This document shows, one piece after another, positions 5,606-52,698 of a stretch of 64,000 nt of DNA. The DNA comes from Halovulum marinum (GTDB lineage Bacteria; Pseudomonadota; Alphaproteobacteria; Rhodobacterales; Rhodobacteraceae). The stretch is from positions 62,001-126,000 of the forward strand of contig NZ_WIND01000001.1 in assembly GCF_009697225.1 (NCBI RefSeq). The letters are read 5' to 3'. The position numbers and the translations under genes were made by a program. How positions within the stretch are numbered: the first letter of the stretch is position 1; each line of letters begins with the position of its first letter. The notes beneath the pieces are model-generated. The model did not search any database, was not told the DNA's origin, and worked only from the letters and a program-made list of their open reading frames with translations.

Positions 5606-7331
<1,726 letters not shown>

Positions 7332-19852: not shown

Positions 19853-20125
19853 CTAGACCGTCTTGGTCCCGAACACCTTTCGCGCGTAGTCGTGCTGCTC
19901 TTTCGACTTCCGCTTTAGCTGCTCGAGTTCGGAGCGCGTCAGCATCTCGGAAGTTGAGCGCGTCGCCGGCTTCACCTGGTTGATCGAGACGCTGATCCCG
20001 TTCCTCGCGGCCCATGCGTGGATTCTCTGGTGCGCCGCGATTTCCTCCGGCGTCAGCGCCGGTGCGGGCGTCGGTGTCGGCTTGCGCCGGAAGATCGAGC
20101 AGATCGCCCTGGTTGCGCGCGTCAT
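19853..20125 (-). CDS. small element-associated protein or fragment
   Basis: A 90-residue frame from an ATG (MTRATRAICSIFRRKP) to a TAG, just upstream of the giant broken gene on the same strand. It has a Pro/Thr linker (PTPTPAPAL), then a helical part with AWAARNGISVSINQVK and a highly charged C-terminus (ELEQLKRKSKEQHDYARK). It is not assigned to a family. The central peptide recurs in degraded form at the left end of the island, so it is likely element cargo. It may be a complete small gene or the 5' part of the broken one. Confidence 0.4.
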   Translation of the reverse strand: MTRATRAICSIFRRKPTPTPAPALTPEEIAAHQRIHAWAARNGISVSINQVKPATRSTSEMLTRSELEQLKRKSKEQHDYARKVFGTKTV

Positions 20126-20622
20126 CGTCGAACAGACCGCCAGCCGGCGGCGCGGCGTCGCAACTCCCGCTACGCTTTTGCCGGCCGGGCTTGAAGTATC
20201 AGCGTTCGGCAGGCGGTTCCCTGGTAGCCTACCGCCGCGCATACATTTCCCACATGGTCTCTGCCCCATAATTATGGCCATAAGAATGATACCCTCACGG
20301 ATCCACTTCGTAGCCTACACAAACGCCGATCCTCGGGGAAAGCTAGGTGAACCTGTTTTAGGAAGCCATTCCATGCTGCCAGACAGATGCACGCCCTCGT
20401 ATCGGGACGATCTCCAGATAAGGATGATGCACGCTACCTATCCGACGCTACCTGTCCTCACATCGGGGTAGGCGAGAGCCTCTGTCAGCAGCGAATGCCC
20501 TGCCGGTCATTCCGTTGGTCGGACCTCAAATCTTCTACGCGCGCCATGTGGGGAAAATGTTGGCACGCCCGTCAACCGAGCAGGCTTTCGCCCGCACAAA
20601 CAACATCTTAATGGTCTGGATT
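20126..20622. other. gene-less segment between element remnant and tRNA-Ala
   Basis: About 500 bases with no convincing coding frame and visibly lower GC than the neighbouring genes. The only structure noted is a perfect 12-base palindrome, TTATGGCCATAA, at 20272-20283. It directly abuts the 3' CCA end of the tRNA gene, the usual integration side for tRNA-targeting integrases, but no integrase gene or repeat of the tRNA end was found. Confidence 0.6.
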
Positions 20623-44128: not shown

Positions 44129-46177
44129 TCAGTTCCGCCAGAGCGGCGCCAGGCCGCGCAGCCGGTACTGCAGCCCCGCCACCAGCTTGTGCCGCCTGGT
44201 GGCGTGCCGGCTGACCGAGCCGGCGCGCGCCGACAGCCGCGACAGGATCACCTCGGGGGCGCAGGCCAGCCCGGTCTCGGCGTCGAAGTAGCGCGGATAG
44301 GCGATCAGCGCGGCATGCACCAGCGCGGTCAGATCGGGCCGGGCGACGCGCCGCGGGCATGGCGCCGCGTGGTCCCGCGTCAGCCCCCAGCCGGCGTAGA
44401 ACGGGGTGCCGAAGCAGTGAACCTCGCGCCCGCGCAGCAGTGCCTCGAATCCCATCAGCGAGGTCATCGTCACCACCACGTCGGCCTGGTCCATCGCCTC
44501 CGCCGCCGAGGTGTCGCGGGCGACATGATCCGCCAGCCGGGACATCTCGTCCGCGCGGATCAGGCCCTGGCGCAGCCCGGCCTCGATGTCCGGGTGCGGC
44601 TTGTAGATCACCACGTCGTCCGGGAACAGCGCGCGGGCGCGGCGCAGCAACTCCAGGTTGGTGCCGACCGCGCCGGTGCCCAGCCGGATCGAGGCGTCGT
44701 CCTCGACCTGCCCCGGCACCAGCACCCGGCGCCGGCCCGGCCTCGACGGGAACCGCGGCGCGGCGCTGCCGACGTTGTACTTGGTCAGCCGCGCGGCGAC
44801 GATCGCCGACTGCAACGCCTCGGCCCGCTTGCGGGCGTGGCTCGGCAGGTCGGCCGAGGCGGCGATGATCCGCTCCAGCCGGCTTTCGCGGGTCGGATCG
44901 AAATAGATGCCGAGATCGTCGATCACCAGCGAGGCGGCGGGAAGCAGCTGCGCCCCAAGCCCGACCGAGCGCAGGAACCCGTCCTCGGCGCGCCACAGCG
45001 GCACCGCGCGGGCCTCGGCCGCGGCGCGGATCTCGGGGGTTTCCTTGCCGGCCCAGAGCAGCAGCGTGCGGCCGCTGCCGGACGCCCTGGCGACGGCGCG
45101 GGCCGGGTCGTTCTCGAACGCCGGCGGGCCGGCCTCGCCGCGCAGGAACGCGCGCATCGGCGCGTGCTTCCACGGCTTCATCCCGGTGCAGAGCAGCGGC
45201 CGCGCGTTCTCGCGCCGGGCGCGGGCCTGTGCCTCCAGGGCGCGGGCAACATCCTCGAAGGCACAAAGCCGGTCGTGGTGCGGGTCGTACCACGCCGGGT
45301 AGTCGATCAGCGCGGCGTGGAACAGCGCCTCGACCGACAGCGCGCGACCGCGGCGCGGGACCGGTATGCGGTCGTCGCTCAGCCCCCAGCCGGCATAGAA
45401 CGGCTGTCCGAAGACCACGGGCCGGTGGCCGGCAAGGATTGCCTCGAAGCCCAGCTGCGACGAGACGCAGTAGACCGCCGTCGCCCCGGCCAGCAGCGTC
45501 CAGGGGTTCACCGGCGCGGCACAGACCTGGGTGCGCTGGTCGAGGTCCTCGGGGCCGAAGTGGCCCCGGCGGTGGCCCGCGGCGGTGACCGGATGGGTGC
45601 GCAGCAGCAGGCGCGCGCCGGGATGCTCGGCGCGGGCGGCGGCCAGCATCGCGGCGAAACTTTCCGCCGACGCGCCGGCGTGGGCGATGGCGGCGTCGCC
45701 GGCGGTCTGGTCGATCACCAGCACGTAGCCCGGCGCGGGCGCCGGCGCCTCGGGCGACCAGTCGCTGTATTTCGACAGCCCCTCGTCGCGCAGGAAGGCG
45801 ATGCCGTCGCGGGCGCGGGTCTCGGCCTGCGGCGTCAGCGCGCTTTCGGCCAGCATCCGCTCCAGCCGAGACGGTCGCGCGGCATCGTAGTGCAGCGCCA
45901 GATCGTCGATCAGCAGGCCCAGCGCGCGCTCGCCCGACGGGCCCGGGCGCACCGAGCGCAGGAACGCGTCCTCGACGTTCAGCAGCGGCTTGTTCCAGCG
46001 CCGCGCCACCCACTGCCCGCGCGCCGACACCGGGCGCCGGCCCCAGACCGCCACCGCGTCGGCGCGGCGCGGGTCGGCCAGCGGCGCCAGCCGCCAGCCG
46101 GACAACTCGAGGATCCGCCGGATCCGCCGGTTCAGCAGGAAGCCGCCGGTGTAGGCGGCCGCCAGCCGGGTGCTCAC
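44129..46177 (-). CDS. kpsC: capsule polysaccharide biosynthesis protein KpsC-like (two tandem modules)
   Basis: A 682-residue cytoplasmic enzyme built of two homologous capsule-synthesis modules. Each contains a blocky motif of the type VFGQPFYAGWGLSDD (first half) and CFGTPFYAGWGLTRD (second half), plus GFLRSVGLGAQLLPAASLVI and AFLRSVRPGPSGERALGLLI. KpsC proteins are retaining beta-Kdo glycosyltransferases that, with KpsS, build the poly-Kdo linker of group 2-type capsules on phosphatidylglycerol. The start is a GTG overlapping the upstream export gene stop (GTGA), chosen over a longer frame running into that gene. Confidence 0.85.
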   Translation of the reverse strand: MSTRLAAAYTGGFLLNRRIRRILELSGWRLAPLADPRRADAVAVWGRRPVSARGQWVARRWNKPLLNVEDAFLRSVRPGPSGERALGLLIDDLALHYDAARPSRLERMLAESALTPQAETRARDGIAFLRDEGLSKYSDWSPEAPAPAPGYVLVIDQTAGDAAIAHAGASAESFAAMLAAARAEHPGARLLLRTHPVTAAGHRRGHFGPEDLDQRTQVCAAPVNPWTLLAGATAVYCVSSQLGFEAILAGHRPVVFGQPFYAGWGLSDDRIPVPRRGRALSVEALFHAALIDYPAWYDPHHDRLCAFEDVARALEAQARARRENARPLLCTGMKPWKHAPMRAFLRGEAGPPAFENDPARAVARASGSGRTLLLWAGKETPEIRAAAEARAVPLWRAEDGFLRSVGLGAQLLPAASLVIDDLGIYFDPTRESRLERIIAASADLPSHARKRAEALQSAIVAARLTKYNVGSAAPRFPSRPGRRRVLVPGQVEDDASIRLGTGAVGTNLELLRRARALFPDDVVIYKPHPDIEAGLRQGLIRADEMSRLADHVARDTSAAEAMDQADVVVTMTSLMGFEALLRGREVHCFGTPFYAGWGLTRDHAAPCPRRVARPDLTALVHAALIAYPRYFDAETGLACAPEVILSRLSARAGSVSRHATRRHKLVAGLQYRLRGLAPLWRN

Positions 46178-47319
46178 TCCAGCGCCCGGTCGCCCAGTCG
46201 CGTCAGCGTGGCGGCGAAGTTCAGCGTCTGCGATGTCGCCTCCAGCACCCTGGTCCATGCGACGAACGGCGCCTCCGTGATGTAGATCGTGTCATCGTCG
46301 CGGATCTGGAAATCCTTGGCAATGAAGATGCCGCCGGGGCTGGTCAGGTCGATGACATAGGCGAAGGGCTCGCCCTCGGCCATGTCGTTGCGGCCGGTGA
46401 CGCGGTTCGCCACCGACGCCATCTCGCGCCGGAAGACGAACACCCCGGTCGGATCCGACAGGTTGCCGTTCAGCCCGCCGACCTCGGCCAGCGCGTCGAT
46501 CGCGCTGATGTCGGCGCGCGGGAACGGCACCCGGGCCTGCGCACCGGTCGCGCCCAGCGCGGTGAAGGCGCGCTGGTCCTCCTCGACGATGATGGTGTCG
46601 CCGGCGCGCAGCGCGATGTCGTTGGCCGGGTTCTCGTACAGGTCCTGCAGGTAGATGCGGCCCGAGCCGCTGCGGCGGCGCACGGTGACGATGGCAAGCT
46701 CGGGGTCGGCGGTCACCCCGCCGGCCCGCGCCAGCATCGCCGCCAGCGTGTTGGTCGAGGGCTCGATCGGATAGACCCCCTGCCCGGAGACGCCGCCGAT
46801 CAGGTTGATCGTCGCGCCGTCGCCGGCCAGCCGGCGCACCTCGACCTGCGGGTCGGGAGTGGCGCGGCCCAGCGACTCGGTGATCAGTTCGCGCAACTCG
46901 TCGGGGGTGGCGCCGGCAGCCCTGATCGTGCCGGCGTAGGGCACGAAGATGTTGCCGCGCTGGTCGACCTGGATCTCCTGCAGGTTGGCGACCTTTTGGC
47001 CGGTACCGACCAGCAACCCGTTGTCGACGTTCTCCCACACGGTGACGGACAGCGAGTCGCCGGCGTTGAAGGCGTCGGTGCGCAGTTCCGGCAGGGTCAG
47101 GAAGCTTTGCGAGAAGCCGAAGCGCGGATCGACATAGGCGCGCTGCGCCACGGCGCCGTCGACCAGCACGACGTTCAGATCGCCCCCCGCGCGTTTCGAG
47201 GAGGCGACGATCTCTTCGGCGCTGGGGCCGGGGCGCGGCAGGCTGTTGCAGCCGGCCACGAAAACGACGCAGGCCAGAACCGCGGCGCGGGCCGCGGTCC
47301 GGCGGTATCGGGGTGTCAC
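46174..47319 (-). CDS. outer-membrane polysaccharide export (OPX) lipoprotein, KpsD/Wza-like
   Basis: A 381-residue polysaccharide export protein. It starts with a lipoprotein signal (VLACVVFVAGC, lipidated Cys near residue 24). A poly-export domain follows (FNAGDSLSVTVWENVDNGLL, then GNIFVPYAGTIRAAGATPDE) and then two SLBB-like repeats (INLIGGVSGQGVYPIEP, LAAMLARAGG and later IDALAEVGGLNGNLSDP). It should form the outer-membrane channel for capsule. It is translationally coupled to kpsC. Inner-membrane KpsM/T/E-type partners are not in the window. Confidence 0.87.
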   Translation of the reverse strand: MTPRYRRTAARAAVLACVVFVAGCNSLPRPGPSAEEIVASSKRAGGDLNVVLVDGAVAQRAYVDPRFGFSQSFLTLPELRTDAFNAGDSLSVTVWENVDNGLLVGTGQKVANLQEIQVDQRGNIFVPYAGTIRAAGATPDELRELITESLGRATPDPQVEVRRLAGDGATINLIGGVSGQGVYPIEPSTNTLAAMLARAGGVTADPELAIVTVRRRSGSGRIYLQDLYENPANDIALRAGDTIIVEEDQRAFTALGATGAQARVPFPRADISAIDALAEVGGLNGNLSDPTGVFVFRREMASVANRVTGRNDMAEGEPFAYVIDLTSPGGIFIAKDFQIRDDDTIYITEAPFVAWTRVLEATSQTLNFAATLTRLGDRALE

Positions 47320-47392
47320 GCTCGCTGCCTCATGATCTGTTTTGCCCGACCATAGATCATTGGACGGGCAGGGAAAAGCCGGGCGGCCGGGA

Positions 47393-48673
47393 TCAGCCGG
47401 CCTCGGTGCGCAACTGTGGCCGTGCGGACTCGGATCGCCAGGCGACCGACTGGTAGGGATCGCGGTCGGCCAGCATCACGTCGATCACATGGCGCAGCGC
47501 GTCGGCCCGCCCCGAGGCGGTGTAGAAGCCGCCGGGAAACTGCGAGGTCTGCAACAGGAACTGCCGGTAGGCCATGTAGGCGTCCAGGTCCGGCCGCCGC
47601 GGATTGGCGAAGAATTCGTCGATCGGCTGGTGCGAGACCAGTTCCGGCTTGTCGTAGACCGAGCGGCCGAAGGCGCGCAGCGGCAGGCCGCGCCACAGCG
47701 CCTGCTGGCCCGCGGTGGAGTTCACGGTGACGGCGGTGGAGGCGTTGTCCAGCATCTCGCCCAGGCGGCCGCCGCGGATCATCTGCACCCGCCCGGCGAT
47801 GCCGTGGCGCCGCGCCGCCGCCATGATCAGCCGGAACAACGGCTCGCGCCCGTCCTCAAGCGGGTGGGTCTTGAACACCAGCCGGTGGTGCGGCGGCGCG
47901 CCCCGCGCGAAACCCTTGCAGCACAGGTCGATGAAGTCCGAGATGTGCTGGAAATCCGAGTGATCGCGGAACGAGCTGTCGTGCGCCAGCTGCAGCAGCA
48001 CGAGGTGGTAGTTCGCGCCGCTGGTCTTCAGCTTGCGCGTCTCGACCCGGCGCTCGAGCGTGTGCAGCGGCAGCAGCGCCAGACGCTTGATGTAGAGCGA
48101 CCATTCCCGCTTGACCGAGATCGTCCGGTGCGGCCGGAAGCAGCGGTAGCGGCGGTTCGCGAACAGGATCCGCCAGTGATACAGCGCGCCGTACCACATG
48201 TGATGGTAGATCGAGCCCCACTGTGCCGGCGCTTCGGGCAGCTTGTCGGGGTTGCACCCCAGCATCGCCCGCATCTCGGACACCTGCATGTTCATCAGGC
48301 GCGAGTTGCCGTTCACCCCGTCACGTTCGTAGGTGACCCAGTAGGGGCGCAGGTAGCCTTCCTCGAAGCAGTGCACCGACAGGCCGCGCAGCCGCGCCAC
48401 GCGGCGGGCGATGGCGTGCACCGGCCGGGTGTCGCCGTAGAGAACCAGATCGGTCACCGGGTTGACGTCGAGAAAGGCGCTCAGCACCGCCTCCCATTCC
48501 GAGACATCCCGGAGGAAGGGGGTGTAGGCGTCGCGATGCGGCCAGTAGTGCTGGTCGCCGGCGTTGAACCCGATCCGGTGCACCTGCGTCCCGGCCAGCC
48601 GCAGCTGCCGCGCCAGGTCGCCGAAGAAGGGACCGTGCGGCCCCTGCAAGAACAGGAAGTACCTGTCGCTCAT
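47393..48673 (-). CDS. kpsS: capsule polysaccharide synthesis protein KpsS-like
   Basis: A 426-residue protein with the KpsS pattern: start FLFLQGPHGPFFGDLARQLR, then VHCFEEGYLRPYWVTYERDG and a late block TAVTVNSTAGQQALWRGLPL. KpsS adds the first Kdo of the beta-Kdo linker to phosphatidylglycerol. The start (MSDRYF) is preferred to an ATG six codons earlier because it matches the family. It is separated from the OPX gene by about 70 bases on the same strand, so the three genes probably form one transcription unit. Confidence 0.85.
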   Translation of the reverse strand: MSDRYFLFLQGPHGPFFGDLARQLRLAGTQVHRIGFNAGDQHYWPHRDAYTPFLRDVSEWEAVLSAFLDVNPVTDLVLYGDTRPVHAIARRVARLRGLSVHCFEEGYLRPYWVTYERDGVNGNSRLMNMQVSEMRAMLGCNPDKLPEAPAQWGSIYHHMWYGALYHWRILFANRRYRCFRPHRTISVKREWSLYIKRLALLPLHTLERRVETRKLKTSGANYHLVLLQLAHDSSFRDHSDFQHISDFIDLCCKGFARGAPPHHRLVFKTHPLEDGREPLFRLIMAAARRHGIAGRVQMIRGGRLGEMLDNASTAVTVNSTAGQQALWRGLPLRAFGRSVYDKPELVSHQPIDEFFANPRRPDLDAYMAYRQFLLQTSQFPGGFYTASGRADALRHVIDVMLADRDPYQSVAWRSESARPQLRTEAG

Positions 48674-48842
48674 CCTAACGCCCTGCCCCAATCGGTTTTT
48701 CTTGATCCTCTAGCACGAATCATCCGGTTTCCAATCGTGTCCCGTCGATACAGCCCGCGATGGGCGGGATTATGTCGCCCTTGCCCACGGAATGGGCATC
48801 CAGTATCCCGCCAGTGGTGCTCGCGAGCAGGATAGGGACCCG

Positions 48843-49466
48843 ATGTTTACCGGAATCATAACAGACGTGGGCGAAGTCGCGGAGGTGAGCGGCCGCGGCG
48901 ACCTGCGCGCCCGGCTGATCACGGCCTTTCCGGCCGGGGGCATCGCGCTGGGCGCCTCGATCGCCTGCGCCGGCGTCTGCCTGACCGTGGTCGACCGCGG
49001 CAGCGGCGACGCGCCCGGCATCGCCGGCGACTGGTTCGACGTCGACATCTCGGCCGAGACGCTGTCGAAGACCACGCTGGGCGCCTGGACCCCCGGCACC
49101 CGCGTCAACCTGGAGCGCGCCCTGCGCGTCGGCGAGGAACTGGGCGGGCACATCGTTTCGGGGCACGTCGACGGCACCGCCGAGGTGCTGTCCGCCGAGG
49201 ACTCGGGCGACAGCACCGTGATGACCTTCGAGGCGCCCGCGCACCTGGCGAGGTTCATCGCCCCCAAGGGGTCGGTGGCGCTGGACGGCACCTCGCTGAC
49301 GGTGAACGACGTCGACGGGCCGCGCTTCACCGTCAACTTCATCCCCCACACCAAGGCCCACACCACCTGGGGCGCGGTGCGGCCGGGCGCCCGCGTGAAC
49401 CTGGAGGTGGACACGATGGCGCGCTACGTCGCCCGGCTCGACGACATGCGGAGCAGCGGAGCATGA
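48843..49466 (+). CDS. ribE: riboflavin synthase (alpha subunit)
   Basis: Dismutates two molecules of 6,7-dimethyl-8-ribityllumazine to riboflavin. The 207-residue protein has the canonical start MFTGIITDVGEV and two tandem lumazine-binding repeats, each with a GxxLTV-type turn (SIACAGVCLTVVDRG in the first, VALDGTSLTVNDVDG in the second) and the central GGHIVSGHVDGTAEV. A longer frame upstream is rejected. No FMN riboswitch structure could be recognised upstream. The stop overlaps ribBA (ATGA). Confidence 0.95.
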   Translation: MFTGIITDVGEVAEVSGRGDLRARLITAFPAGGIALGASIACAGVCLTVVDRGSGDAPGIAGDWFDVDISAETLSKTTLGAWTPGTRVNLERALRVGEELGGHIVSGHVDGTAEVLSAEDSGDSTVMTFEAPAHLARFIAPKGSVALDGTSLTVNDVDGPRFTVNFIPHTKAHTTWGAVRPGARVNLEVDTMARYVARLDDMRSSGA

Positions 49467-50563
49467 GCGACACCGGGAACTACGCCGCGGCGATCTCGTC
49501 CATCGACGAGATCATCGCGGACGCGCGCAACGGGCGCATGTTCATCCTGGTCGACCACGAGGACCGCGAGAACGAGGGCGACCTGGTGATCCCGGCGCAG
49601 ATGGCGACCCCGGACGCGATCAACTTCATGGCCACCCACGGCCGCGGGCTGATCTGCCTTTCGCTGCCCGGCGCGCGGCTGGACGCGCTGGGCCTGCCGC
49701 TGATGGCGGCGTCGAACTCGTCGCGGCACGAGACCGCGTTCACCGTCTCGATCGAGGCGCGCGAGGGGGTGACCACCGGCATCTCGGCACACGACCGGGC
49801 GCGCACCGTCTCGGTGGCGATCGACCCGCTGTCGAAGCCGCAGGACATCGCCACTCCGGGGCATGTGTTCCCGCTGCGCGCCCGCGACGGCGGCGTGCTG
49901 GTCCGCGCCGGCCACACCGAGGCGGCGGTGGACATCGCCCGGCTGGCGGGGCTGAACCCGTCGGGGGTGATCTGCGAGATCATGAAGGAGGACGGGTCGA
50001 TGGCCCGGCTGCCGGACCTGATCGCCTTCGCGCAGCTGCACGGGCTGAGGATCGGCACGATCAGCGACCTGATCGCCTATCGCCGCCGCTACGACAACCT
50101 GGTCCGCGAGAGCGCCGTGCAGCACATGGAATCGGAATACGGCGGCGAGTGGCTGCTGCGCGTCTACACCGACGAGACCGCCGGCGCCGAGCACCTGGTG
50201 CTGACCAAGGGCGACATCTCGACCGCCGAGCCGGTGCTGGTGCGGATGCACGCCGCCAACCCGCTGGAGGACATGCTGGGGATGCGCCCCGGCCGCTCGC
50301 ACCAGCTGGCGGACGCGATGCGGATGATCGCCGCCGAGGGCCGCGGCGTCGTGGTGCTGCTGCGCGACATGTCGATGAAGCTGAACTTCGGCGACGAGGG
50401 CGCGCCGCAGACGCTGCGGCAGTACGGGCTGGGGGCGCAGATCCTGGGCTCGCTGGGCATCCACGAGATGGTGCTGCTGACCAACTCGCCCAGCCCCAAG
50501 GTCGTCGGCCTGGAGGGCTACGGGCTGTCGATCGCCGGCACGCGGCGGATCGAGCTTCCCTGA
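49463..50563 (+). CDS. ribB: 3,4-dihydroxy-2-butanone 4-phosphate synthase with degenerate GTP cyclohydrolase II domain
   Basis: A 366-residue RibBA-type fusion. The RibB half (residues about 1-205) is intact, with ILVDHEDRENEGDLVIPAQM, FMATHGRGLICL and the HTEAAVDIARLAG region, and makes the four-carbon riboflavin precursor. The C-terminal half is RibA-like, but the zinc site that should read Cys-x10-Cys-x-Cys is absent: the corresponding stretch is ANPLEDMLGMRPGRSHQL with no cysteines. Such RibBX hybrids with inactive cyclohydrolase domains are known in proteobacteria. A separate RibA would then be needed elsewhere. Confidence 0.85.
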   Translation: MSDTGNYAAAISSIDEIIADARNGRMFILVDHEDRENEGDLVIPAQMATPDAINFMATHGRGLICLSLPGARLDALGLPLMAASNSSRHETAFTVSIEAREGVTTGISAHDRARTVSVAIDPLSKPQDIATPGHVFPLRARDGGVLVRAGHTEAAVDIARLAGLNPSGVICEIMKEDGSMARLPDLIAFAQLHGLRIGTISDLIAYRRRYDNLVRESAVQHMESEYGGEWLLRVYTDETAGAEHLVLTKGDISTAEPVLVRMHAANPLEDMLGMRPGRSHQLADAMRMIAAEGRGVVVLLRDMSMKLNFGDEGAPQTLRQYGLGAQILGSLGIHEMVLLTNSPSPKVVGLEGYGLSIAGTRRIELP

Positions 50564-50564
50564 G

Positions 50565-51650
50565 ATGCGGCGCAAACAAGTGGGCCGCATACTTCTTGCG
50601 GTTTTGGCCGGTGTACTAATACTCCCATTGGTTTGGGTAGCGAGTGCGACCACCGGCGCCGAGCGGCTGCAACGGCTGGCAGAGCTGACGGGCTATCGCC
50701 TGCGTGGTTCGAACTTCGATCCGGTGGATGGGGAAACGAAGGGTGTCTTTCGTGGCTCTCCTTCGCATGTAACTCTCACAGGACAGATCTACCACGACCT
50801 GATCGTCGCTCAGCAGTGGGGGCAACGTGTTTCCCGCCTGGATACCGCCGGTTCGGTGGTCTGGAGCGTAAAAACAAGCTTACCTGTAGTCGGCGCGGAA
50901 CTCTTCGATGATCATCTCGTCGTCGCAACGTTGGACAGGGTCATTGCATTGGCCCCCGAAAACGGACGCCAGGTCTGGGAACGTATGATCGACTTCACTC
51001 CTTCGGGTCTCGGGCGCGCAACGGGTGCTGCGATATTGCTTCCTCCGGCAGCGGAAGCTGCTCCCCTGGCAGTGAGTTCGGCGGACGGCGAAACCAGCAC
51101 GCTGCCCGTTCTTCCGCTTGGGATGGCGCGTCACCTGATCGTTCGAGATAACGAGATCATCATCGCCAGAACTTTCGACCACCAAGTGACCAGAACCGGT
51201 ACCGACGGAAGCCCAATCAATAGTATAGATTCATATTTTCCAAACTACGTTCAAGTTCTGGACGGCGATACGATTGCCGTCGCAGAAGAACACGCCAACC
51301 GGATCGTCCGCGTCAGTTTTTCGACTGGAGCCCGGACCAGCTTTGCCAGTTGTGCACACCCATTGTTCGCCGATACGACAACGACCCCAGCGACGATAGT
51401 GGCACGACAAGCACGCACCGCTACTTCAACCCGCGGCGTCAATGCCCCTCGATCCCTTTGTGACAGCCGTGTGCAATCCGATGCTATTTATTCGCCGAAC
51501 GGCTTTCATGTCGTCGATCAGCGATATATCTACGTCGCCGACACGGACAATCATCGTATTGTGCTGTTCGACGTGAACACCGGAAACCGGATCGGAACCC
51601 TCACCGGGTTCAATAATCCGATCAGGGTCATCGCGATCCAACCTAAGTGA
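50565..51650 (+). CDS. membrane-anchored beta-propeller-like protein, atypical composition
   Basis: A 361-residue protein of unknown function with an N-terminal signal anchor (ILLAVLAGVLILPLVWVASA). The rest is strand-rich, with repeats resembling NHL/PQQ-type propeller blades: LDTAGSVVWSVKTSLPVVG, LDRVIALAPENGRQVWERM, and near the end YIYVADTDNHRIVLFD. DNA of this gene is clearly lower in GC than its neighbours and uses AT-ending codons freely. It starts one base after the ribBA stop and its own stop touches the ribH leader, so it is transcribed with the riboflavin genes. It is likely a horizontally acquired insertion. Confidence 0.7.
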   Translation: MRRKQVGRILLAVLAGVLILPLVWVASATTGAERLQRLAELTGYRLRGSNFDPVDGETKGVFRGSPSHVTLTGQIYHDLIVAQQWGQRVSRLDTAGSVVWSVKTSLPVVGAELFDDHLVVATLDRVIALAPENGRQVWERMIDFTPSGLGRATGAAILLPPAAEAAPLAVSSADGETSTLPVLPLGMARHLIVRDNEIIIARTFDHQVTRTGTDGSPINSIDSYFPNYVQVLDGDTIAVAEEHANRIVRVSFSTGARTSFASCAHPLFADTTTTPATIVARQARTATSTRGVNAPRSLCDSRVQSDAIYSPNGFHVVDQRYIYVADTDNHRIVLFDVNTGNRIGTLTGFNNPIRVIAIQPK

Positions 51651-51670
51651 CGCCGCAGGAGACCGCGCCC

Positions 51671-52210
51671 ATGGCCACCGCCATCACCCATCACGCCCTG
51701 CCCGCCCCGGTCTTCGACCGGCCGACGCGGGTGCTGATCGTAGTCGCCCCCTATTACAAGGACATCGCGGACCAGCTGCTGCAGGGCGCCCGCGCCGCCT
51801 GCGAGGCCGCCCGCGCGATGCACGACACCGTCGAGGTGCCCGGCGCGCTGGAGGTGCCGCAGGCGATCGCGCTGGCCGCCGCCAGCGGCGAGTACGACGG
51901 CTATGTCGGCCTGGGCTGCGTGATCCGCGGCGAGACCACGCATTACGACACCGTGTGCAACGACAGCTCGCGCGGGCTGATGGAGCTGGGCCTGCGGGGC
52001 CTGTGCGTCGGCAACGGCATCCTGACCGTCGAGAACGTCGAGCAGGCGCAGGTTCGCGCCGAGGCCGCGGGCCAGAACAAGGGCGGCGGCGCGGCCGAGG
52101 CGGCGCTGCACCTGATCGCGCTGAAGCGGCGCTTCGCGCGTCCGGCGCCGGCGCTGCCCGAAGGCAGCTTCCAGGTCGCGGGCATGCCCGGCACCGGGGG
52201 ATCCGCGTGA
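51671..52210 (+). CDS. ribH: 6,7-dimethyl-8-ribityllumazine synthase
   Basis: Condenses 3,4-dihydroxy-2-butanone 4-phosphate with the pyrimidine precursor to lumazine, the substrate of RibE. The 179-residue protein has VLIVVAPYYKDIADQLLQGA, the substrate block VEVPGALEVPQAIALAA, and VGLGCVIRGETTHYDTVCND with the catalytic His. The C-terminal tail is longer than usual (PALPEGSFQVAGMPG). The ATG follows GCAGGAGACCGCGCCC; a GTG eight codons upstream overlapping the previous stop is an alternative. Confidence 0.93.
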   Translation: MATAITHHALPAPVFDRPTRVLIVVAPYYKDIADQLLQGARAACEAARAMHDTVEVPGALEVPQAIALAAASGEYDGYVGLGCVIRGETTHYDTVCNDSSRGLMELGLRGLCVGNGILTVENVEQAQVRAEAAGQNKGGGAAEAALHLIALKRRFARPAPALPEGSFQVAGMPGTGGSA

Positions 52211-52698
52211 TGGCCGGCTCCGGGGACAGGGCCGACCGCAAGGAGGCGGCGCGGCAGATGCGCTCGGCCGCACGGCTGTTCGCGACCCAGGCGCTGTTCC
52301 AGATGGAGGCCGCGGACGCCACCCTGGCCGACGTGCAGGAAGAGTTCGAGACCCACCGCTTCGGCGCCGAGATCGACGGCGACACCTATGCCGAGGCCGA
52401 TCTGGACCTGTTCCGCACCATCCTGCACGGCGCCGTGGACCGGCAGGCGCGGATCGACCGGCTGACCGACGCCGCGCTGGTCGAGAAATGGCCGATCGCC
52501 CGGATCGACCCGACGCTGCGCGCGCTGTTCCGTGCCGCCGGCGCCGAGATGCTGACCACCGAGGTGCCGCCGCGGGTGGCGATCAACGAGTATGTCGACG
52601 TCGCCAAGGCGTTCTTCCCCGACGGCCGCGAGCCCAAATTCGTCAACGCCGTGCTGGACCACATGGCGCGGGAGATGCACCCCGAGGCCTTTACCTGA
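52210..52698 (+). CDS. nusB: transcription antitermination factor NusB
   Basis: A 162-residue all-helical protein that binds boxA RNA with S10 (NusE) to support rRNA antitermination. Family features are AARLFATQALFQMEAADAT at the start, LIEKWPIARIDP-like LVEKWPIARIDPTLRALF in the centre and VAINEYVDVAKAFFPDGREP near the end, followed by FVNAVLDHMARE. It begins in an overlap with ribH (GTGATG). The ribH-nusB link is conserved in many proteobacteria. A short basic N-terminus precedes the domain. Confidence 0.93.
   Translation: MAGSGDRADRKEAARQMRSAARLFATQALFQMEAADATLADVQEEFETHRFGAEIDGDTYAEADLDLFRTILHGAVDRQARIDRLTDAALVEKWPIARIDPTLRALFRAAGAEMLTTEVPPRVAINEYVDVAKAFFPDGREPKFVNAVLDHMAREMHPEAFT

Follow-up and report, generated by a model that had tools for sequence, protein, structure and literature searches.

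A gene for a propeller-like protein occupies the junction between ribBA and ribH in the riboflavin operon of Halovulum marinum, within a stretch of 64,000 nucleotides that was analysed as a whole (the window; Table 1). From the evidence presented below, we think it probable that a foreign gene entered this junction on its own after the species had split from its two sequenced genus-mates, and that it encodes a membrane-anchored propeller which would be transcribed with the rib genes, translated by re-initiation and employed as a binding protein of the cell envelope, independently of flavin.

Operon layout

The genes of this region, as identified by Pfam, follow each other in the order ribE, ribBA, propeller gene, ribH and nusB. 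The stop codon of ribBA ends at 50563 and leaves a single base (50564) before the ATG of the propeller gene; the likely ATG of ribH (51671) lies 20 nt past the stop of the propeller gene, and a second possible in-frame ribH start, a GTG at 51647, overlaps that stop. This close packing, with gaps of 1 nt to ribBA and 20 nt to the likely ribH ATG, agrees with the placement between the two genes that had been proposed from the sequence alone (the sequence-only reading).

Table 1. Features of the propeller gene and its surroundings (window coordinates)
Feature	Position	Strand	Characteristics
Capsule genes (two Capsule_synth, one Poly_export/SLBB)	44132-48682	-	Divergent from the rib operon
ribE (riboflavin synthase)	48843..49466	+	Pfam PF00677 (Lum_binding), E 1.2e-48; start checked
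ribBA	49463..50563	+	Pfam PF00926 (DHBP_synthase) and PF00925 (GTP_cyclohydro2); used for the junction comparison
Propeller gene	50565..51650	+	Intact ORF, ATG start, 361 amino acids, TGA stop; GC3 0.59
Connector of blades 5 and 6	51351..51461	+	Bounded by the only two cysteines of the protein (263, 299)
Spacer, 20 nt	51651..51670	+	Contains AGGAG (51657-51661), which lies 9 nt ahead of the ribH ATG
ribH (lumazine synthase)	51671..52210	+	Pfam PF00885 (DMRL_synthase), E 2.3e-40
nusB, next gene of the operon	52210..52698	+	Pfam PF01029, E 3.1e-30

Base composition and codon usage

The GC content of the propeller gene is 0.568 and its GC3 is 0.591; the corresponding values for eight of eight nearby genes range from 0.684 to 0.740 and from 0.927 to 0.975. 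Its GC3 is the lowest among 207 genes of its own genome, which were chosen by a mechanical rule (ORFs of at least 150 codons, amino-acid score) rather than from curated annotation and were taken partly from the window and partly from fifteen 20-kb stretches, i.e. from 15 of 74 contigs. The distribution in this sample has a mean of 0.90 (SD 0.08), a median of 0.93 and a first percentile of 0.64, and the next-lowest value after that of the propeller gene is 0.636. When codon adaptation to the neighbouring genes was computed, the gene ranked third lowest of the 207, two genes being lower. The clearly different composition ascribed to it earlier is therefore borne out by both measures. Since further low-GC3 genes exist in the genome, it should be regarded as the extreme of a tail and not as the sole odd gene.

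Two other ORFs of the window, at 5609-7309 (-) and 19980-20471 (+), have a GC3 of 0.68 and are the sixth and seventh lowest of the 207. Elsewhere in the genome, GC3 is unusually low in L069:2246-5562 and in most of L072; these stretches are perhaps genomic islands.

The ribBA-ribH junction in related genomes

Of 60 related genomes, 50 have a RibBA match at E ≤ 1e-50, and loci were obtained for 30, one of which is the genome of H. marinum itself. In none of the 29 relatives does a propeller match occur near ribBA (loci of about 4 kb). The stop of ribBA and the start of ribH overlap or are at most 12 bases apart in 28 of these 29, 26 having been scored by script and two (L022 and L033) by eye; in some rows the script took an upstream ribH start codon (e.g. 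L027, scored at -47), where the sequence has an ATG adjoining the stop. The sole wide junction is that of L029, with a 585-nt gap (901-1485) which contains neither a propeller match nor a convincing gene. Both genus-mates, whose RibBA proteins are 86% and 85% identical to that of H. marinum (the genus comprises three genomes), have a tight junction free of the insert; one of them, G198, was examined at the junction. The last few codons of ribBA differ between relatives.

It appears, then, that the gene does split an otherwise conserved gene order, as had been claimed. The result named in the sequence-only reading as refuting, namely the same gene at the same site across the family and with normal composition, was looked for and found at 0 of the 29 readable junctions. 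Because no copy is present at the junction in 29 relatives and ribBA abuts ribH in 28, insertion is the simplest reading, and the event would most simply be a lineage-specific insertion of a single gene after the split from the two sequenced genus-mates.

Domain content and predicted structure

Two Pfam models score above their cut-offs in the protein: PQQ_2 (PF13360; E 2.6e-10, 40.8 bits, cut-off 27.6) over residues 78-257, and NHL (PF01436; E 2e-5, 24.8 bits, cut-off 20) in blade 6. The propeller-like character suspected earlier is thus supported, and the accompanying statement that the protein belongs to no family has to be corrected at the superfamily level, where PQQ_2/BamB-like and NHL repeats are recognized. 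No specific family of NCBIfam, PHROGs or PADLOC fits (the PHROGs and PADLOC scans covered four of the five proteins of the family, all except that of G1197), and an Rfam scan returned nothing.

An AlphaFold2 model built from a four-member alignment (mean pLDDT 75.8, pTM 0.76) consists of an N-terminal hydrophobic helix (about residues 3-42) and a propeller (about residues 65-360) made of six four-stranded groups, completed by a closing strand. Residues 21-64 have a pLDDT below 50, and the connector between blades 5 and 6 is also poorly modelled (mean pLDDT 42 in residues 281-300). The two cysteines that bound this connector are candidates for a disulphide, and together with the hydrophobic N-terminus they suggest a domain that faces the periplasm and is tethered to the inner membrane. 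Structure comparison with VIA-align gave a best Z of 23.3 over 243 residues (rmsd 2.9; 3no2), and the best 50 rows (Z 20.2-23.3) are all to propellers of the PDB. The neighbours retrieved by both Foldseek and VIA-align are NHL, YWTD and related propellers, with many rows tied, and a viral structure library yielded propellers of many kinds and no specific lead. The fold alone gives no activity.

The protein can be compared with several known groups of propellers. It resembles BamB-type proteins (PF13360, TIGR03300) in its PQQ_2 match and likely envelope location, but it reaches 23.5 bits against an equivalog cut-off of 285.2, as a partial match, and, unlike BamB, it lacks a cysteine close to its N-terminus that could carry a lipid anchor, i.e. 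it has no lipoprotein signal. BamB has eight blades, whereas six are seen in our model. With the NHL propellers (PF01436; PknD, TRIM71, Thin, NHLRC2) it shares the repeat in blade 6 and the fold (Z about 20), and Thin also gives a sequence match (E 5.2e-8); however, the kinase, RING and thioredoxin parts of those proteins are replaced here by nothing more than the hydrophobic N-terminal helix, and the first half of the protein matches PQQ_2 rather than NHL. The first VIA-align row, 3no2 (BACCAC_01654 of Bacteroides caccae, a protein of unknown function), is 13% identical; no special kinship need be assumed, since YWTD propellers tie with it within 1 Z unit. The scytonemin-cluster families (NF033206/NF035926) match weakly: ScyF gives 16.7 bits with the window protein (cut-off 350) and ScyE 24.4 bits with the homologue P0002 (cut-off 80).

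Homologues and their distribution

The genome of H. marinum contains one copy of the gene. Two homologues (34-36% and 32% identity to the window protein) occur in G381, a genome of another genus in the same bacterial family. A third was found in Telluria antibiotica TW-1 (28% identity, pairwise E 3e-22) when GTDB genomes were scanned with a three-member alignment, and a fourth in G1197, from the family of Telluria (23% identity, pairwise E 5e-13), in a search of 245 genomes of that family. The single window protein retrieved no match from the GTDB collection, and the three-member alignment at least 15 loci. Twelve of the matches (L049-L060), from other phyla, are weaker (E 4e-7 to 4e-5) and align with sections of the C-terminal half; they could be either NHL proteins of a generic kind or distant members of the family. 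All five family members have EEH, the PN preceding blade 6, ADTDN and the closing NxP without variation, and four of the five have the cysteine pair that lies between blades 5 and 6. Polar residues with which blades begin (R189, N227, N312, N350) are conserved too and might face the central channel, as in SGL/paraoxonase-type enzymes.

The searches summarized here were made in overlapping genome samples, so that their counts are not additive, and several scored only some first-look candidates. Among 394 genomes (393 genera) of the bacterial family to which H. marinum belongs, members at E ≤ 1e-8 were found in its own genome and G381 only. At E ≤ 1e-4, 390 genomes of the order gave three matches (own, G381 and one weak) and a sample of 385 genomes gave five (own and four weak). 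Three matches (own and two weak, local ones) came from 198 genomes at E ≤ 1e-3, one (own) from 299 genomes at E ≤ 1e-8, one (G381) from three genomes at E ≤ 1e-6 and two (Telluria and G1197) from 245 genomes at E ≤ 1e-8. The family does exist, but within the genomes searched it is rare and patchily spread. A small, unnamed propeller subfamily is thereby outlined, and searches of Pfam, NCBIfam, PHROGs and PADLOC yielded no specific family for it; nor was any report recognized as dealing with this gene in a literature search, which is not proof of its absence from the literature.

Neighbourhoods of the homologues

Copy 1 of G381 (L044) is on an 8-kb contig, and the DNA on either side of the gene matches plasmids of Sagittula, Leisingera, Ruegeria, Phaeobacter and others. 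IS3-type DNA flanks it on both sides (L044:1-300 and 1396-1760): among the best rows, an IS3-family transposase is annotated in two of five upstream and three of five downstream matches, the rest having no listed gene. In Pfam searches the downstream piece gave a sub-threshold HTH_Tnp_1 match and the upstream piece none. Copy 2 of G381 (C3; L045:7400-8461, minus strand) is located between a gene for a GntR/UTRA regulator and one for alanine racemase, with a GC of 0.512 vs 0.643 and 0.616 in these two neighbours. Its frame opens only at a TTG, past a stop codon that interrupts the frame close to where the start is expected, and it may therefore be decaying. In the same genus (three genomes), alr is preceded by a different gene in G1165, which has no family member, and G1166 (77% complete) has no alr match.

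The Telluria locus (L048:3962-14119) encodes a MurJ-type flippase, a sugar transferase, an asparagine synthase, the propeller, a hydrophobic protein and a cytidylyltransferase; the propeller gene is thus bordered by the asparagine synthase gene and by a hydrophobic, polymerase-like gene (identified as such by eye, with no Pfam match). Its GC (0.578) is near that of the asparagine synthase gene (0.582) and its GC3 (0.59) is exceeded in both genes with which it was compared (0.71 and 0.85). Oxidoreductase-like and aminotransferase-like genes follow further on in this locus (by eye). The G1197 copy is a lone gene with an ATP-grasp gene on one side and an alcohol dehydrogenase gene on the other. 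When 300 nt on each side of the window copy, both G381 copies and the Telluria copy were compared, only short matches at chance level were obtained.

Origin of the gene

The combination of aberrant composition and absence in close relatives by which recent horizontal transfer is recognized is found here, and the best reading is that of a horizontally acquired gene from a rare propeller subfamily. The idea of a gene of foreign appearance that is recent at the level of the genus and lodged in a tight operon holds up; the moron-like origin proposed with it, taken in the phage sense, finds no support, as no match was obtained in phage records, plasmid records or viral contigs (pattern scans) or in PHROGs, and the gene stands singly between operon genes and not within a prophage. 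Searches of plasmids, phages, GTDB genomes and viral contigs for a donor or mobile vector gave nothing of high identity, only the distant homologues. Between 50400 and 51800 we saw neither a scar nor terminal inverted repeats, and no duplication of a target site was clear; the TGA at both ends of the insert probably represents two stop codons and nothing more.

The gene could instead be an old one in the bacterial family, which nearly all relatives have lost and whose AT content has risen by drift, and the distant homologues in G381 are in keeping with such a history. However, no relative examined keeps the gene at this site, its GC3 is the lowest of the 207 genes, and the 28 tight junctions out of 29 mean that many precise losses would be needed; we regard this history as highly improbable. 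A more serious possibility, though still an unlikely one, is a recent arrival by mobile-element activity or transformation that is tolerated because it is non-polar and that has no selected function. The restriction of the gene at this site to one species, the IS3-type DNA adjoining one homologue and the possible decay of the TTG-initiated copy of G381 would all fit a passenger of this kind, and the case would then be an ordinary one; the intact frame of 361 codons and the retention of the family motifs in the window copy argue against it. Horizontally transferred genes are known to insert into existing operons (PMC2259305), and what is particular to the present case is that one gene with sharp boundaries lies in an operon for the synthesis of a core vitamin.

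Possible functions

The tight place between ribBA and ribH had raised the idea of a function linked to flavin, such as flavin binding, export or the maturation of periplasmic flavoproteins, the position in the operon then being functional. Riboflavin synthesis is cytoplasmic, however, and the propeller begins with a hydrophobic helix; the gene is missing from this junction in 29 of 29 relatives; and a tblastn search of the four homologue loci (8, 17, 17 and 18 kb) with RibBA, RibE and RibH had no match at E ≤ 1e-3. As no conserved genomic link with riboflavin genes was found in these loci, a flavin role is unlikely, and we give it very little credence.

A role in surface polysaccharide is suggested by one neighbourhood, that of Telluria, where the homologue sits in a surface-polysaccharide locus, and an accessory protein for assembly, modification or export can be envisaged. 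Capsule-type genes also lie about 2-6 kb upstream of the gene in the window, but they did not arrive with it: a KpsS-like match is present near the rib genes in 12 of the 29 insert-free relatives, both genus-mates included, so that the window capsule genes are no evidence for such a role. The other three homologues lie outside loci of this type as far as examined, and we consider the polysaccharide role rather unlikely. A broader proposal, which we hold to be more doubtful still, would combine it with the history of the family: rare, undescribed, six-bladed membrane-anchored propellers that travel as lone genes, one copy having IS3-type remnants next to it, settle within or alongside housekeeping genes without polar effect and serve the assembly or modification of surface polysaccharide. 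Were this true, the vitamin B2 operon would be the expression platform of the propeller. For the envelope-binding, flavin-independent protein that we favour, the propeller would probably act in the cell envelope by binding a ligand or a partner, as a scaffold, adaptor or glycan binder, with a link to surface polysaccharide as one possible variant.

Proposed expression

We suppose that a foreign single gene entered the ribBA/ribH junction after the species had split from its two sequenced genus-mates. With its ATG one base past the ribBA stop, it would most likely depend on the rib promoter for its transcription and on re-initiation past the ribBA stop for its translation. A promoter and terminator scan, limited to the sigma-70 consensus, was empty, which is weak evidence given that no more than 0.4 promoter-like sites were expected by chance. 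A foreign gene would have been accommodated in a tight operon of core metabolism with a spacing that should let both neighbours be translated, which cleanly illustrates one way for new genes to gain expression at once; if co-transcription and function were shown, it would offer a tractable case of regulatory hitch-hiking. By eye, the gene has no clear Shine-Dalgarno sequence of its own. The Shine-Dalgarno-like AGGAG in the spacer is probably the ribosome-binding site of ribH, and an insertion that lets ribH initiate through it would be non-polar and hence tolerated. In many relatives, a comparable ribH signal is visible by eye within the end of ribBA.
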